NCBI GenBank assembly: GCA_018266075.1
Contig: JAFEBB010000064.1
Span: forward strand, 1 to 41,989
Direction of reading: 5' to 3'
Length of the DNA stretch: 41,989 nucleotides
Origin: Deltaproteobacteria bacterium
GTDB lineage: Bacteria; Myxococcota; Myxococcia; Myxococcales; SZAS-1
Shown here piece after piece: positions 28,700 through 35,774 of the stretch. Made by a program: the position numbers and the translations under genes. How positions within the stretch are numbered: the first letter of the stretch is position 1; each line of letters opens with the position of its first letter. The notes beneath the pieces are model-generated. The model saw only the letters and a list, made by a program, of their open reading frames with translations. It was not told where the DNA came from and did not search any database.

Positions 28700-30766
28700 G
28701 TGCCTTCCGCGTCACCAGCACCGCGCCTGAGCGACCGAACGTACCTGGCGCTCGCTGCGCTGCTCCTCGGCGCGCTCGTGCTTCTTGCGTACGAGAACGC
28801 GTGGCACGTGGGCTTCCTGCGCGACGCCGCGTACATCCTAGGCAAGGACCCGCGCATCGGCTCCGCGACGTGGGAGAACGTGCGGCTCGCGTTCGCGCAG
28901 GGCTACTGGTGGCCGAGCTTCCAGGCCGATCTCTACCGGCCCGCGACCACGCTGTCGTTCATGCTCGACGGCGCGCTGCTGGGCCACGTCGACGCGCCCG
29001 AGGGACACCACGCGGTGAACCTCGCGCTGCACTTCGCGAACGCGCTGTTGGTGCTGCTGATCGCGCGGCGACTGATGCCGGATTCGCGAGGGGTCGCGCT
29101 CATCGCTGCGGCGATCTTCGCTGCGCATCCGCTGGCCACCGAGGCCGTGACGTATCTGGTTGGGCGTTCCGACGAGCTCGCGGCGCTCGGGATTCTCGCG
29201 GGCTTGCTCTTTCATCTGCGCGGTTCGCGCGTGGGCGTCTTGCTCGCGTCGACGCTCGCCGCGTTCAGCAAAGAGAGCGGCGTGCTGCTCGTGGCGGTGC
29301 TGCTGCTCCACGACGCGCTCATTTCACGGCGCGCGAACCTCGCGAGCTGGCTCGCAGCCGCGATTCCGGCGATCGGCTTCGTGATCGCCCGGCTCGTGGC
29401 GTTGCGCGACTCGCCGTTCTTCGGCTGGCCGTTCGTGGACAACCCGCTCGTGGCCGCGACGCCCGTGCAGACCGTGCTCACCGCGAGCAAGGTCTTCCTG
29501 CACGGGCTGGGGCTGGCGATCTTTCCGCGCGCGCTCTCGGTGGACTACTCGTACGACGCGATTCCCGTCTTCGGCGCGGGCGGCGTCGAGGATGCGCTCT
29601 GCGTGATCGGGTTGATCGTCGCGATCGCGTTGGTCGTCGGTGCACTGCTGCTGAAGAAGCGCGCGCCCATTCCGGCCTTCGCGACGCTGCTGTTTCTCGG
29701 TTTGCTCGTGCCGACCTCGAGCGTGCTCTTCCCCATCGGCGCGATCTTCGCGGAGCGATTTCTGTACTTGCCGCTGGCGGCGTTCGCGCTCGCAGCGGCG
29801 TGGACGCTGGAGCACCTCACGCGCCTTCACGTGCGCGCGCCGGTTGCTATCGCCGCGGCGCTCACGCTCGCGTTCGCGATTCGCACGCACGCGCGCAACG
29901 ACGACTGGCACGACGAGCTCTCGCTCTACCGCAGCGCCGCCGAGGCCACGCCGAACAGCTTCAAGGTCCACCGCGTGCTCGCCGGCCTGTACTGGAATCG
30001 GGGGCCCTCCGAGGAGAACGCCGACGCCGCCATCGCCGAGGGAAATCGCGCCCTGGCCATCCTCGAGGCGCGGCCGCTCTCGCTGGATCAACGCGACGGC
30101 TGGCTGGAGCTGGAGCTTGGCAGCTACGAGCGCGCCAAGGGCGAGTACCGCCGCGCGGCGCACGACGAGCCCGCGGCGCTCACGCACTTGCAGCGCTCGC
30201 TGACGCTGCTGGAGCGCGCAGCCGAGGTCGACGCGTTCGGCGCCCAGCGCGCCCGCGAGCAGAAGCTGGCCCACGGTGCGAAGCCCGACGAGGTGCGCGC
30301 CACGGCCAATCCACGCGTGCAGCTCGCCCTCTTCGAGACCGACATGGATCTGCAGAAACTGCCTGAGGCGGACCAGGCCGCCACGGCTGCGCGCGCTGCG
30401 ATTCCGCTCTCACCCGAGCCGTATGTGGCCGCCGCGCGGCTGGATCTCGCGCAGGAAGATCTCGACGGCGCTGCGGTGGAGCTGGTGCAAGCGCTCATCC
30501 TCGATCGCCAGAGCCAGGCCGCATGGGGACCGCTGCACAGCGTCTACGCGGCGCTCGGGCACGAGGAGGCCATCACCAGCGCGTCGCAGGGCCCGACGCT
30601 GGATCCCAAGAACCCGCTGGTGCGACACCACCTGGATCGCGCGTGTAACGATTTGGTTAAGCAGCTCTCGGCCGCGCACGAGCTGGAGAGCGCGCGCGTG
30701 GTCTACGACCGCTGCGTGGAAGAGTTCGCGTGCGCGAAGGAGCAGCTCGGCGCGCGGCCTCAGTGA
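28700..30766 (+). CDS. TMTC-like GT-C/TPR membrane protein
   Basis: 688 residues with GTG start. An N-terminal polytopic part (roughly to residue 400, about ten helices) carries the TMTC/DUF1736 hallmark IFAAHPLATEAVTYLVGRSDELAALGIL and HAVNLALHFANALL. Eukaryotic TMTCs are O-mannosyltransferases, and bacterial homologues are presumed lipid-linked sugar transferases. The first loop has RDAAYI, where relatives have an Asp-Asp. The C-terminal third is TPR-like (AKGEYRRAAHDEPAAL, AARLDLAQEDLDGAAVELVQALILD). It is probably in the inner membrane with the TPRs in the periplasm. Its end overlaps the convergent small gene by seven bases. Confidence 0.85.
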   Translation: MPSASPAPRLSDRTYLALAALLLGALVLLAYENAWHVGFLRDAAYILGKDPRIGSATWENVRLAFAQGYWWPSFQADLYRPATTLSFMLDGALLGHVDAPEGHHAVNLALHFANALLVLLIARRLMPDSRGVALIAAAIFAAHPLATEAVTYLVGRSDELAALGILAGLLFHLRGSRVGVLLASTLAAFSKESGVLLVAVLLLHDALISRRANLASWLAAAIPAIGFVIARLVALRDSPFFGWPFVDNPLVAATPVQTVLTASKVFLHGLGLAIFPRALSVDYSYDAIPVFGAGGVEDALCVIGLIVAIALVVGALLLKKRAPIPAFATLLFLGLLVPTSSVLFPIGAIFAERFLYLPLAAFALAAAWTLEHLTRLHVRAPVAIAAALTLAFAIRTHARNDDWHDELSLYRSAAEATPNSFKVHRVLAGLYWNRGPSEENADAAIAEGNRALAILEARPLSLDQRDGWLELELGSYERAKGEYRRAAHDEPAALTHLQRSLTLLERAAEVDAFGAQRAREQKLAHGAKPDEVRATANPRVQLALFETDMDLQKLPEADQAATAARAAIPLSPEPYVAAARLDLAQEDLDGAAVELVQALILDRQSQAAWGPLHSVYAALGHEEAITSASQGPTLDPKNPLVRHHLDRACNDLVKQLSAAHELESARVVYDRCVEEFACAKEQLGARPQ

Positions 30767-30987
30767 TCCTTGCCGCTCGCGACCCACACGCAGATGCCGG
30801 TGAGCACGAACAGCCCAATCGCGACCTGGCGGTCGTTGTGGGTGACGCCGCCGCGCAGCGCCATGTGCTCGCAGGATGCGTCGCCCATGCAGTCGGAGGT
30901 GTCCTTGAGCTGAAGCCAGCGGCTGGTGAAGTGCAGGGCCGCGAGCCCCGAGCCCAGCGCGCACATGCCGAAGAAGATGCGCCGCAT
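30760..30987 (-). CDS. Small two-helix membrane protein
   Basis: 75 residues. Two probable membrane segments: residues about 3-22 (RIFFGMCALGSGLAALHFTS) and 55-70 (VAIGLFVLTGICVWVA). Between them lies a loop with two cysteines (SDCMGDASCEHMAL) and His residues that could form a disulfide or bind a metal. The ATG is one base after the PBP1A stop, so it is in the PBP1A transcript. Unknown function. A peptidoglycan-related accessory role is only inferred from position. Confidence 0.65.
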   Translation of the reverse strand: MRRIFFGMCALGSGLAALHFTSRWLQLKDTSDCMGDASCEHMALRGGVTHNDRQVAIGLFVLTGICVWVASGKDH

Positions 30988-30988
30988 C

Positions 30989-33844
30989 TCAGGGCGTCAT
31001 CAGCGGATCGAGCGGCTGCGCGTTGTTCTTCTCATCGTCGAGCGTGGGCTCGTTGCCGCGCTTGAACGCCTCGCGCACGCCCTCGCGGCCCTTGGCGAGC
31101 TTGCCCGTCTTGGGGTCGATGTTCGCCCAGACGATGTCCGCGCCCGGCGCCGGCTGGAACCACGGCTGCGGCACGCCCTCGAGCGCGTGCTTCATGTACT
31201 CGAGCCAGATCGGCAAGCTGGCGCGCGAGCCGGCTTCGTACTTGCCCATCGGGTCGTGCTTGTAGTCGTCGTAGCCGAGCCACACCGCCGTGAGCAGGTC
31301 GTGGGTGAAGCCCACGAACCAGGTGTCGTGCGAGTCGTTCGTCGTTCCGGTCTTGCCGGCCACGGGCTTGTTGAGCCGCGAAGCATTGGCGCCGGTGCCA
31401 CCGGTGGCCACGTCGTGCAGCAGCCAGGTGGTGAGGAACGCGGTCTCGGGCTCCATCACCTGCTCGGGCTTGTCGAAGAGGCGCGCGTAGCCCGCGCGGA
31501 TGCGGTCCATCGATGACGCCCAGGGATCGTTGTACGCGGTGTGGTCCTCGAGCACGCGGCCGTTGCGATCGCGAACCTGGCGCACGAAGTAGACGGGCTC
31601 GCGCTTCCCGTCGCGATCGAAGACCGCGTACATCTGCGCCAGCTCCCACGGGTGCACGCACGAGCTGCCCAGCGCGCTCGAGAGATCGCTGTGCACTTCC
31701 GTGGTGATGCCGAGCTTCTTGGCCCACGCGCGCACGTTCTCGATGCCCACCGCCTGGAAGACCTTGATGGCGGGGATGTTCATCGACTCCATCAGCGCGG
31801 TGCGCACGATGACGTCGCCCTTGAAGTCGTTCTCGTAGTTCTCGGGCTTCCAGCGCAGCTGCGTGTCCGGGTCGTCGAAGACGATGGGCGAGTCCACGAT
31901 GACGGTGCTCGCGGTGTAGTCGAGCTGCTCGATGGCGGCGCTGTACTCGACCGGCTTGAACGCCGAGCCCGGCTGGCGGCAGGCCTGGAACGCGCGGTTG
32001 AACTCGGAGGCGTCGTAGTCGTAGCCGCCGATCATCGCGGGCACGTAGTTCTTGTGTGGATCGATGCTCACGATCGCGCCCTGGAGCTGCGGCTCCTGCT
32101 CCAGCGAGTAGAGCGCGCTGCCGTCGGTGGGGATCTGCTTCTCGGTGAAGCTGTCGGCGTCCTTCTTCACCTCGTCGAGGGTGCGAAGCTTCACCAGCGC
32201 GACGTCGCCGACCTTCAAGGCCGTGGACACGTGCGAGATGAGCGCGCTCGGGTAGTACTGCTCCGGGTTGGGCTTGCGCGCCCAGCGCATCTCCGCGAGC
32301 GGCAGCTTGCCCTTGTGGTGCGTGCCGATGAGCAGCTCGGCGACCATGTCCTTGTCGTCGACCTTGGTCACGATGGCCGGGTAGTAGCCACCCACCACGG
32401 GCTCGTCCTTGGTGAGCTGCTTCTCGACCTTGGCCTCGAACTCCTTCTTCTCGGCTTCGCTCGTGAAGTGCATCAGCGGGCCGTAGTAGCCCTGGCGCTT
32501 GTCGACCTCGATGAGGCCCGTGAGCATGGCATCCTGGGCTTCGCGCTGGCGCTCGGCGTCCATCGTGAGATCGACGGTGAGGCCATCGGTCAGCAGCCGC
32601 TCGTTGCCATAGCGATCGACGATGTCGCGGCGCACCTGCTCGGCGAAGAACGGCGAGCTGTCGTGGAAGACGTCCTCCACGTCATAGGCCTTCACCGGGG
32701 CCTTCATGGCGTCGTCGTAGTCCTTCTGGGAGATCATCCCGTCGACGAGCATGCGGCCGAGCACGTAGGCGCGGCGCTCTTTCGAACGCTGCGGGTGCGC
32801 ATACGGGTTCGCGCTGGGGCTCTGCGGCAAGCCCGCGAGCGTGGCCATCTCTGCGAGCGTGAGGTCCTTCACGTCCTTGCGGAAGTAGTTCTCCGCCGCG
32901 GTCTGGACGCCGTACGCATGGTGGCCCAGGTAGATATTATTCAAATACAAATAAAGAATTTCCTCTTTGGTCAGCGACTTCTCGAGCCGCCGGGAGAGGA
33001 TGGCCTCGCGGATCTTGCGGATGATGCCCAGCTTGCCCGTGCGGACCGTGGCTTCCTTGAAGGCCTGGCGCAGCGCAGCTTCCTTCAAGCGCGTGTAGAC
33101 CGCCTGCACCTGCTTGTTGCGCGCGTTGGTGGCGCGCTGGGTGAGGAAGTCGGTGGCGCGCTTGAGCTCGTCGGGGCTGGGCGGGATCTTCTTGGTGTCG
33201 TCGTTGTAGGCGTTGCCCAGGCGCGCGCGGCGGCTGGAGTCGACGAACTCGTCGATGGCGGCCTGCGCGGGCGCGGGCGCGGGCGGCACCTTGGCGTCGG
33301 CGTCGCGGAGGATGGCGTCGAAGTCGACGGCGGAGAAGCTCTCGTTCACCAGGATCGACTTGGCCGTCTGCTGGGTGAGCGTGGAGCCACCCTGGATATG
33401 CTGACCGCGCAGCGTCTTGCTGGCCGCGCGGATGGTGCCCTCGATGTCGAGGCCGAAGTGGTCGAAGAAGTTCTTGTCCTCGGCGGCGATGAAGGCCTGC
33501 ACCAGCTTCTTGGGGATCTGCTCGTAGGGAACGACCTTGCGCCGCTCCTTGTAGAACTCGCCCACCAGCGCGCCGTCGTCGCTGCGGAACTCGGTGAGGA
33601 TGGGCGGCCGGTAGTCCTCGACGCGCGGCACCTCGGGCAGGCCCTTGCTGAACTTGTAGTACACGCCCAGCGCTGCGGCGCCGCCAATGAGCACCACGGC
33701 CATGCCGCAGTACACCAGGAAGAGGAACGCCTTCTTCCACCAGTGCCGCGGACGGACGGTGTCCACCAGCTCCAGGCGCGATTCGCGCTCGGGCGACGGA
33801 GGCGGCGGCGCCTCCGGGGGCAGCTCGGCAGCAGGCTGGGCCAT
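30989..33844 (-). CDS. Penicillin-binding protein 1A (bifunctional)
   Basis: 951 residues. It builds peptidoglycan with two activities: a GT51 glycosyltransferase and a DD-transpeptidase. Membrane anchor at residues about 40-62. GT51 motif EDKNFFDHFG with Glu122, then GGSTLTQQTAKS (152-163) and later RRLEKSLTKEEILYLYLNNIYLG. Between about residues 168 and 273 there is an insertion of roughly 100 residues not expected in this domain. The transpeptidase has SAFK (Ser627, Lys630), ESMN and KTGTT. The C-terminus is Pro/Asp-rich. The ATG at 33842-33844 is chosen over a longer open frame because the hydrophobic anchor follows normally. Likely class A PBP, symbol mrcA-like. Confidence 0.94.
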   Translation of the reverse strand: MAQPAAELPPEAPPPPSPERESRLELVDTVRPRHWWKKAFLFLVYCGMAVVLIGGAAALGVYYKFSKGLPEVPRVEDYRPPILTEFRSDDGALVGEFYKERRKVVPYEQIPKKLVQAFIAAEDKNFFDHFGLDIEGTIRAASKTLRGQHIQGGSTLTQQTAKSILVNESFSAVDFDAILRDADAKVPPAPAPAQAAIDEFVDSSRRARLGNAYNDDTKKIPPSPDELKRATDFLTQRATNARNKQVQAVYTRLKEAALRQAFKEATVRTGKLGIIRKIREAILSRRLEKSLTKEEILYLYLNNIYLGHHAYGVQTAAENYFRKDVKDLTLAEMATLAGLPQSPSANPYAHPQRSKERRAYVLGRMLVDGMISQKDYDDAMKAPVKAYDVEDVFHDSSPFFAEQVRRDIVDRYGNERLLTDGLTVDLTMDAERQREAQDAMLTGLIEVDKRQGYYGPLMHFTSEAEKKEFEAKVEKQLTKDEPVVGGYYPAIVTKVDDKDMVAELLIGTHHKGKLPLAEMRWARKPNPEQYYPSALISHVSTALKVGDVALVKLRTLDEVKKDADSFTEKQIPTDGSALYSLEQEPQLQGAIVSIDPHKNYVPAMIGGYDYDASEFNRAFQACRQPGSAFKPVEYSAAIEQLDYTASTVIVDSPIVFDDPDTQLRWKPENYENDFKGDVIVRTALMESMNIPAIKVFQAVGIENVRAWAKKLGITTEVHSDLSSALGSSCVHPWELAQMYAVFDRDGKREPVYFVRQVRDRNGRVLEDHTAYNDPWASSMDRIRAGYARLFDKPEQVMEPETAFLTTWLLHDVATGGTGANASRLNKPVAGKTGTTNDSHDTWFVGFTHDLLTAVWLGYDDYKHDPMGKYEAGSRASLPIWLEYMKHALEGVPQPWFQPAPGADIVWANIDPKTGKLAKGREGVREAFKRGNEPTLDDEKNNAQPLDPLMTP

Positions 33845-33950
33845 TGGCGCGCATCCTACGCACGGCTCCACACCCCCGCAACGTTCGGGCAAGCGAGCGT
33901 TGGCCGGTGGGGCGTGGTAATTCGGCCACAGTCGACAATTGGAGGGCGCG

Positions 33951-35774
33951 ATGTCGCTTCCGCAGCCGACGATCCCCGTGGTGCGCAACCCGGCCGCCCT
34001 GGCCTTTGGCGACGGCGAATCCGGGCACTTGCGCGCGCGGCCCGAAGATCCGGCGCTCGCCGTGCCCGACTTCGTGGTCCAGCTCCTGCTCAGCTGCGAC
34101 GCGCTCGAGCCCATCGCGGATCACGCGGCGCGCTTCGGCTCGCAGTTTGGCGGCATCCAGGGCTTCAAGTTCGCGGGAGTGGCCAAGTCGTTCGCGGAGT
34201 CGCTGGGGCCATTGCCCAAGGGCGGCAGCGGGCTGGACAAGGCGCTCGTCGGAATCCTCCAGCACCTCACGGCGCGCGGGCACCTGCTCACCGGGCCCGA
34301 GCTGCGAGAGCGACTCGCCCCACTGACGGGCACGGCGGGAACGATCACCTCGATGTGCCTGCCCACGGCGAATCGGCCCGAGACGCTGAAGCGCGCGCTC
34401 GCGAGCTACCTGGGCCACTTCCAGAAGCACGGGCGCAAGCTGCGCGTGGTGGTCGGCGATGACTCGACCGATCCGGCTGCGGTCGCCGCGAACGCTGCCG
34501 TGATCGAGGCCGCGCGAAAGGACTTCGGCGGGCAGGTGGAGCACCTGAGCCGCGCAGATCGGCCGGCGCTCGTGGAGAAGCACGCGGGCGGCGACGCGGC
34601 CAAGCGCGAGGCGCTCGAGTTCCTGCTCCTCGATGCCGACGGTCTCGGTCAGACCTACGGCGCGAGCCGCAACGCGCTGCTGCTTGCGACGCGCGGCGAG
34701 CTCGTCTTCTTCGCCGACGACGACACGCTCGCCGAGCTGCATTCGGCCCGAGGACGCAGCGCCGGCGTGGGCATGCTCTTTCCGGGCGAGGAGCCGCAGC
34801 CGCTCTCGCGCTGGCCAGATCGCGACGCGGCCAAGCGGTCGGTGGAAGCCGTCGACGCGGATCTGCTCGCGTTGCACGAGAAGCTGCTCGGGCGTCCGCC
34901 GGCTGCTGCGGTCGCCGACGCGCTCGGTGCGGAGGCGCTGGTGAGCGGGCTGGTTCCAGAAATCGGCGCCGCGCTCGCGAGCGGTTGGGGTCAGATCGCG
35001 GTCACGCTGAATGGCCTCGTCGGTGACTCGGGCTCGTCGATGCCGACGATCCTGTCGATGCTGGAAGCCCGCGGTGAAGAGGCCGCGCGCATCTTCGGCA
35101 ACGGCGGGCTCGCGCAGACGGTTTCGCAGAGCCGCGAGGTGGTGAAGCTCGGCGCTGAGCTTCGGCTGGGCGCGAATGGGCCGTGCATGGCCACGTTCTT
35201 CGGCTTCGACAACCGCGGCCCGCTGGTGCCGTTCTTCCCGCACTTCCGGCGCGAGGAGATTCCGTTCAAGGAGCTGCTGGTGCGCACGCGCGGCGCCGCC
35301 ACGCTCGCCTACTTGCCCTATGCATTGCTGCACGCGCCGCCGGGAAATGCGCCGCGGGTGCTGCCGTCGGTGGCCATGTCGGATGTGTTCATCGCGGCGC
35401 TCGTCGAGGTCGCGCCGGCGCCGTGGGGCGCGGATCCGGCGGCGATGCTGCGCGCGCTCGGTGCGCGACTGGCGGCCGTCGGCGAGCAGCCTGCGGCCGC
35501 GTTCCGTCGCCAGGTGCTCGACATCGCCCAGGCCGGACGCCTGCACATGCTCTCCGCCCGTCGACGCGCGCTCGCTGAGCTCCGCGGCAAGCTGCCCGGC
35601 GCGCTGGCGAGCGAGGCCGAGCGCACCATCCACACGTGGATCTCGCAGCTGCAAGGGCCGCTGGTGGCCGCCGAGCCGGCCCTGGTGGAGAAGCTCGGCG
35701 ACGGCGCGAAGGCAGAGGCGGCGACGCAGCGGCTGCTCGCACGCTTCGGGCGCGCCGTGGCGGCGCTGGCCTGA
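33951..35774 (+). CDS. Glycosyltransferase (GT-A) with extra N-terminal domain
   Basis: 607 residues; GGAGG lies five bases before the ATG. From about residue 130 it shows a GT-A fold: TSMCLPTANRPETLKRALASYL, LRVVVGDDSTD and GASRNALLLATRGELVFFADDDT (the DDD is the metal/sugar-nucleotide DXD). The preceding 120 residues do not belong to the fold. VVQLLLSCDALEPIADHAARFG and LVGILQHLTARGHLL remind me of a PqqD-like winged helix, though this is weak. The C-terminal half contains FFGFDNRGPLVPFFPHFRREEIPFKELL and a helical tail rich in Ala and Arg. No membrane segment. It probably supplies sugar to the membrane proteins encoded downstream. Confidence 0.82.
   Translation: MSLPQPTIPVVRNPAALAFGDGESGHLRARPEDPALAVPDFVVQLLLSCDALEPIADHAARFGSQFGGIQGFKFAGVAKSFAESLGPLPKGGSGLDKALVGILQHLTARGHLLTGPELRERLAPLTGTAGTITSMCLPTANRPETLKRALASYLGHFQKHGRKLRVVVGDDSTDPAAVAANAAVIEAARKDFGGQVEHLSRADRPALVEKHAGGDAAKREALEFLLLDADGLGQTYGASRNALLLATRGELVFFADDDTLAELHSARGRSAGVGMLFPGEEPQPLSRWPDRDAAKRSVEAVDADLLALHEKLLGRPPAAAVADALGAEALVSGLVPEIGAALASGWGQIAVTLNGLVGDSGSSMPTILSMLEARGEEAARIFGNGGLAQTVSQSREVVKLGAELRLGANGPCMATFFGFDNRGPLVPFFPHFRREEIPFKELLVRTRGAATLAYLPYALLHAPPGNAPRVLPSVAMSDVFIAALVEVAPAPWGADPAAMLRALGARLAAVGEQPAAAFRRQVLDIAQAGRLHMLSARRRALAELRGKLPGALASEAERTIHTWISQLQGPLVAAEPALVEKLGDGAKAEAATQRLLARFGRAVAALA

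Follow-up and report, generated by a model that had tools for sequence, protein, structure and literature searches.

A rare, lineage-scattered insertion between motifs II and III of the GT51 domain in a PBP1A-family protein of Myxococcota

The regulatory domains of class A PBPs, OB/ODD and UB2H, sit outside the GT51 domain. They are accessory segments that receive activators, LpoA for the OB/ODD of PBP1A and LpoB for the UB2H of PBP1B, in the account given in the available text of PMC10746261. The same text places the action of MacP at the interface of the jaw and TM parts of PBP2a in S. pneumoniae, and relates a proposal that polymerisation is controlled at the jaw; MacP is a separate regulator protein, and no insert in PBP2a is described in the text available from that source (PMC10746261). 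The jaw of the S. aureus monofunctional glycosyltransferase (SaMGT) has been studied by simulation, in which two pairs of residues, Lys140 and Asn141 where motif II ends and Arg148 and Phe150 ahead of motif III, contact moenomycin bound in the donor site, according to the available text of PMC6053601. Lys153 belongs to motif III, which contributes to the jaw's base, where it faces the membrane, and the jaw flap and the motif III helix are described there as cationic, amphipathic and membrane-facing (PMC6053601). From Lys140 to the residue before Lys153, in the numbering of that source, there are about 11 residues, compared with 113 in the protein examined here.

This protein, P0001, is the product of a PBP1A-family class A PBP gene from a member of the Myxococcales (NCBI GenBank assembly GCA_018266075.1, contig JAFEBB010000064.1). 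The gene lies at 30989..33844 on the minus strand of the window, by which we mean the whole stretch of 41,989 nucleotides that was analysed, and encodes 951 aa. P0001 scored 559.2 bits against TIGR02074, the model of the PBP1A subfamily (cut-off 508.75), and Pfam recognized in it Transgly (in two pieces), PCB_OB and Transpeptidase domains. The OB-like domain between GT51 and the transpeptidase matched PF17092 over residues 453-586 with 52.1 bits (cut-off 27). A hydrophobic stretch at residues 35-66 (33647..33742, minus strand), which is helical in the model described below, is the probable membrane anchor at the N-terminus. On the opposite strand, an open frame of 973 residues (31541-34462, plus strand) runs antisense to the PBP1A gene, and is probably a mere by-product of high third-position GC.

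An alignment of 29 sequences was inspected for the catalytic residues of P0001. Those of GT51 motif I (E122, D123 and H129), motif II (G152, S154, T155, T157, Q158, Q159, A161 and K162, in GGSTLTQQTAK, residues 152-162, 33359..33391 on the minus strand) and motif III (R276, K277 and E280) were all invariant, and so were S627, K630, S687, N689, K831, T832 and G833 of the transpeptidase motifs SxxK, SxN and KTG. Because these residues are invariant, there is no hint of a dead enzyme. Domain order and motifs are the same as in the nearest solved members of the PBP1A family (4oon, 3udf/3ue1 and 5u2g), and the GT51 fold and motifs II and III are shared with SaMGT (3vmq, 3hzs and 6ftb) and with the GT51 domain of A. 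aeolicus PBP1A (2oqo and 3nb6). Apart from the spacing of motifs II and III, P0001 is an ordinary PBP1A; it represents a variant form of a familiar enzyme, and no new system.

The preliminary description of this DNA had pointed to an extra stretch inside the GT51 domain, and this was borne out. P0001 has 113 residues between K162 (motif II, QQTAK) and R276 (motif III, RKxxE), compared with 11 in 76 of 76 alphaproteobacterial PBP1A loci (L013-L088) and 18 in 72 of 99 Myxococcota genomes; a spacing of about 11, or of 18 in most Myxococcota, is usual for GT51, although not defining. When P0001 was aligned with 4oon, 5u2g, 3udf and 7u4h, its segment from residues 166-168 to 270-274 stood opposite 0 to 5 chain residues, and the insertion is therefore absent from the solved PBPs compared, as the preliminary description had supposed. 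The Transgly match of the window gene is split accordingly. Its first piece, with motifs I and II, occupies 33341..33574 (minus strand, Transgly positions 2-81), and its second, from motif III onward, 32750..33061 (minus strand, Transgly positions 74-177), which leaves extra DNA of 93 codons at 33062-33340. From this gap, and from comparison with loops of 18 and 22 residues, the core of the insertion was placed at residues 169-261 (33062..33340, minus strand).

The range originally proposed, residues 168-273 (33026..33343, minus strand), has the right coordinates (33343-33341 for residue 168 and 33028-33026 for residue 273) and contains the insert, but its last dozen residues, with ATVRTGKLG, are those of the ordinary loop. 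They align with EATAKT in the 18-residue loops and with VRSGWAG in the 22-residue loops. Since most Myxococcota already have 18 residues at this place and ATVRTGKLG is ordinary loop, the true insert is nearer 91-95 residues. It is in frame, with a third-position GC of 0.972 over residues 168-273 compared with 0.940 in the remaining gene, and is therefore coding. Comparison of the insert with the rest of P0001 gave no good match (the best was of 21 residues, E 0.026), nor did comparison with the window; a search for repeats gave two weak pairs, which do not account for it, and a Pfam search with the insert gave no match. The existence of the insert and its site in PBP1A are near certain.

The distance from the motif II lysine to the motif III arginine was measured in 99 of 100 Myxococcota genomes. 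It was 10 residues in 4 genomes, 18 in 72, 19 in one, 22 in 14, 42 in one (G136, locus L211), 60-61 in five, 113 in the window and 149 in G099 (locus L178). Two fragments (G029 and G032) from a set of 60 genomes were left out of these counts, and from a second set of 30 genomes three without a match at the cut-off, as well as G132, without motif II in the stretch examined. The 60-61-residue loop, with 42 extra residues at the same site, is present in all five genomes of one family, f2. The loop of G136, with 24 extra residues, is longer than the ordinary 18 but shorter than the long types, and that of G099, the longest seen, has a low-complexity middle rich in E, A and P. Alignment with the PBP1A proteins of Myxococcota thus upheld the unusual length of the window loop, 113 residues against the usual 18, but not its being unique, as the loops of G099, f2 and G136 make clear. 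Loops of at least 42 residues occurred in 8 of the 99 genomes, five of these 8 belonging to one family, and such long loops may be over-represented, because 14 of the 99 genomes were chosen for matching the f2 loop query. We conclude that the loop between motifs II and III is a hot spot for changes in length within this Myxococcota order, and that the insert is real, rare and lineage-scattered. Three further GT51 proteins of the window's genome (L001, L002 and L003) have a short loop, and among 111 Transgly matches in 40 Pseudomonadota genomes none was split. A divergent GT51 match in Pseudomonadota (G220:C2:328143-328712) has 190 codons for 148 model positions, and may hold some 40 extra residues.

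A search with the insert through 147 genomes of the class gave G099, of family f3, as the top non-self match (E 0.0045), followed closely by unrelated-looking matches, the next at E 0.0057. The G099 match falls in the corresponding loop of the orthologue, as inspection of the locus and a hit of the f2 loop query to the same gene confirmed. With the ends removed, the interiors of the window and G099 inserts gave an alignment score of 77, where shuffled sequences averaged 33.2 (z 7.3) and none of 2000 scored as high. Similarity was strong in the C-terminal 45 residues (z 8.9) and was also found in the first 30 (z 3.9; 5 of 2000 shuffles). The two inserts have in common a helix-like start, VPP with more prolines, a PSPD/RSPD motif, and a long charged helix ending in AFxxAT, and though their ends match, their spacers are very unlike in length. 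Identity between the two genes is 78/121 and 398/672 in the gene body on the two sides, and 33/109 in the loop. G099 therefore carries a homologous insert at the same site, and its longer insert with similar ends rules out that the insert is unique to the window.

The f2 inserts had seemed by eye to match the window insert, an impression that pairwise comparison did not support (z about 0); when the f2 model was scored on the window insert, 167 of 500 shuffles were as high. The f2 insert occupies the same site as the window insert, with sequence similarity that is not significant. A loop profile run over 195 genomes of the phylum found the window, G099, the five f2 genomes and one false match, its seven true matches being genomes, or families, whose sequences had built the profile. 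The false match, in G101 (E 0.0065), is an unrelated frame of 316 residues and was not counted. The profile gave 0 matches in 398 Pseudomonadota genomes, a weak negative in a set that contained no positive. The listings of literature searches showed no description of such an insert.

The history of the insert was examined on trees. In a tree built without the loop, G099 was firmly within f3 (100/100), and the window fell outside f2 and f3 with moderate branch support (83/87 and 90/92). A single clade of insert-bearing genes was rejected (p-AU 3e-11), with the caveat that this group was named from the trait. Parsimony on the loop-free tree required three changes for the insert-bearing genes, and four on a tree with more rows, including G136, that came from a short search. 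The trees leave two kinds of history: repeated loss of an old insert, or gain of the loop on at least two occasions or its movement as a segment. The window's own family, f1, is represented by one genome, and the figures for constraint come from f2. Between pairs of the five f2 genomes, 28-39 of 48 residues of the insert interior were kept, and dN/dS was 0.11-0.63 in the loop and 0.09-0.42 in the GT51 flanks, by a simple Nei-Gojobori count with synonymous sites partly saturated. The f2 insert is thus conserved about as well as the surrounding enzyme. This conservation may not carry over to the window insert, because the two inserts are not significantly similar.

Two AlphaFold2 models were made, of the full protein and of GT51 only, and both had the GT51 fold. 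The GT51-only model matched 3nb6 with Z 16.9 (rmsd 1.8, 148 aligned residues) and 3vmq with Z 15.7 (rmsd 2.8, 179 aligned), and the full model matched 4oon with Z 46.2 (rmsd 3.3, 489 aligned residues). Within the insert, block-mean pLDDT was 29-58 and 41-60 in the two models, values of low confidence. Both models placed low-confidence helices at residues 175-185 and 191-209, and long helices through motif III, also of low confidence, at 224-240 and 244-290 in one model and at 224-270 and 273-290 in the other. The insert is thus predicted, with low confidence, to be helical, beginning with a short acidic arm, followed by a spacer of Pro and charged residues and then by a long basic helix that runs on into motif III. 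Structural matches of the insert part alone (Z about 2.5-3.2) were common helical arrangements and uninformative.

The putative acidic arm has its short helix at residues 175-185 (33290..33322, minus strand), and the net charge of the first 25 loop residues of the window is -3. A Pro/Ala stretch had been noticed in the preliminary description and is indeed there, as PPAPAPA at residues 187-193 (33266..33286, minus strand), with VPPPAEP at the matching place in G099. The predicted long basic helix, residues 224-270 (33035..33175, minus strand), runs into the motif III helix and is the part with the strongest similarity to G099; the net charge of the last 45 loop residues is +6 in the window, +6 in G099, and +3 to +6 in those f2 loops for which it was computed. 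Helical hydrophobic moments in the window insert reached at most 0.45-0.46, and these maxima had negative mean hydrophobicity and a net charge of 0 to +1. Since it falls between motifs II and III, the insert lies in the jaw, the part that holds the lipid-linked substrate at the membrane, and, counting from the motifs, we infer that it sits between the two groups of donor-site contact residues. Unlike OB/ODD and UB2H, it is within GT51, and P0001 has an OB domain too; in contrast to PBP2a with its separate regulator MacP, the jaw of P0001 itself carries the insert.

On this basis we tentatively propose, as a reading that falls somewhat short of an even chance, that the insert serves as a regulatory arm, carried on the jaw beside the donor site. 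The helical arm would comprise the acidic arm, a flexible Pro/charged tip, and the long basic helix that runs on into the helix of motif III, and would stand on the membrane face of the jaw between residues that contact the donor-site lipid. It would move or brace the motif III helix, either directly or upon binding of a membrane or periplasmic partner, and would in this way modulate the access of lipid II and the polymerisation of glycan. Precedent for the jaw as a control point comes from MacP and PBP2a of S. pneumoniae, as described in the available text of PMC10746261. A bolder version, which we consider rather unlikely, is that the arm would be a third activator site besides OB/ODD and UB2H, transferred among PBP1A genes of different families separately from the remainder of the gene, or kept in few of many descendants, hence one arm in f1 and in a single genus of f3.

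Nearly equal weight goes to the possibility that in this order the motif II-III loop merely tolerates changes in length, the insert being neutral, mostly disordered padding kept by chance. The spread of loop lengths among the 99 genomes, from 10 to 149 residues and scattered on the tree, the three to four changes needed by parsimony, the low pLDDT of the insert and the low-complexity middle of the G099 insert all point this way. However, lengths are uniform within most families (18 in 72 of 99), the f2 inserts are constrained about like the remaining protein, and at both its ends the window insert is still recognisably like that of G099, in gene bodies that are only 59% identical. It is unlikely that the basic helix does no more than add to the cationic jaw surface that faces the membrane and assist in collecting lipid II, with no protein partner. 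The positive charge of the last 45 loop residues in the window, G099 and f2 agrees with such a role, and so does the cationic, amphipathic character of the jaw flap and motif III helix in SaMGT (PMC6053601, available text), but the strongest hydrophobic moments coincide with negative mean hydrophobicity and little or no net charge, and the acidic arm would offset the charge.

As to the genes that follow PBP1A, in several other families of the order (L123, L129, L125 and L011) the next gene looks, by eye, of TatA/TatB type, with a short N-terminal helix ending in LLGPxxLP or similar. In the window, an ORF of 75 residues (30760-30987, minus strand) starts 1 base after the PBP1A stop, and its two hydrophobic stretches are separated by a loop that contains Cys. 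The preliminary description had suggested that the insert may be a docking site for this adjacent protein, which the close spacing and the lineage-restricted occurrence of both ORF and insert would favour. We now regard this as very improbable. The 146 other genomes of the class gave no convincing relative of the ORF (three weak matches, E 0.014-0.049, each fell within a 291-residue frame), and none of the 23 other loci inspected showed it after PBP1A; the f2 and G099 inserts occur without it, and insert and ORF are found together in one case (n=1). An assembly or frame artefact, conceivable in a single draft genome of 166 contigs, can practically be dismissed in view of the intact frame, the third-position GC of 0.97 and the homologous insert in an independent genome (G099).

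Donor-site residues of peptidoglycan polymerases lie in the motif II-III segment, which in the characterised enzymes compared is short. Its repeated expansion to 42-149 residues in the present group provides natural variants to test the jaw as a control point of glycan polymerisation, and these could reveal a regulator input unknown from E. coli. M. xanthus strains lacking one, two or all three of the class A PBPs are viable, according to the available text of PMC10475089, and this makes M. xanthus a tractable host. If the loop is merely tolerant, it would be a site where tags or sensors might go into these enzymes.
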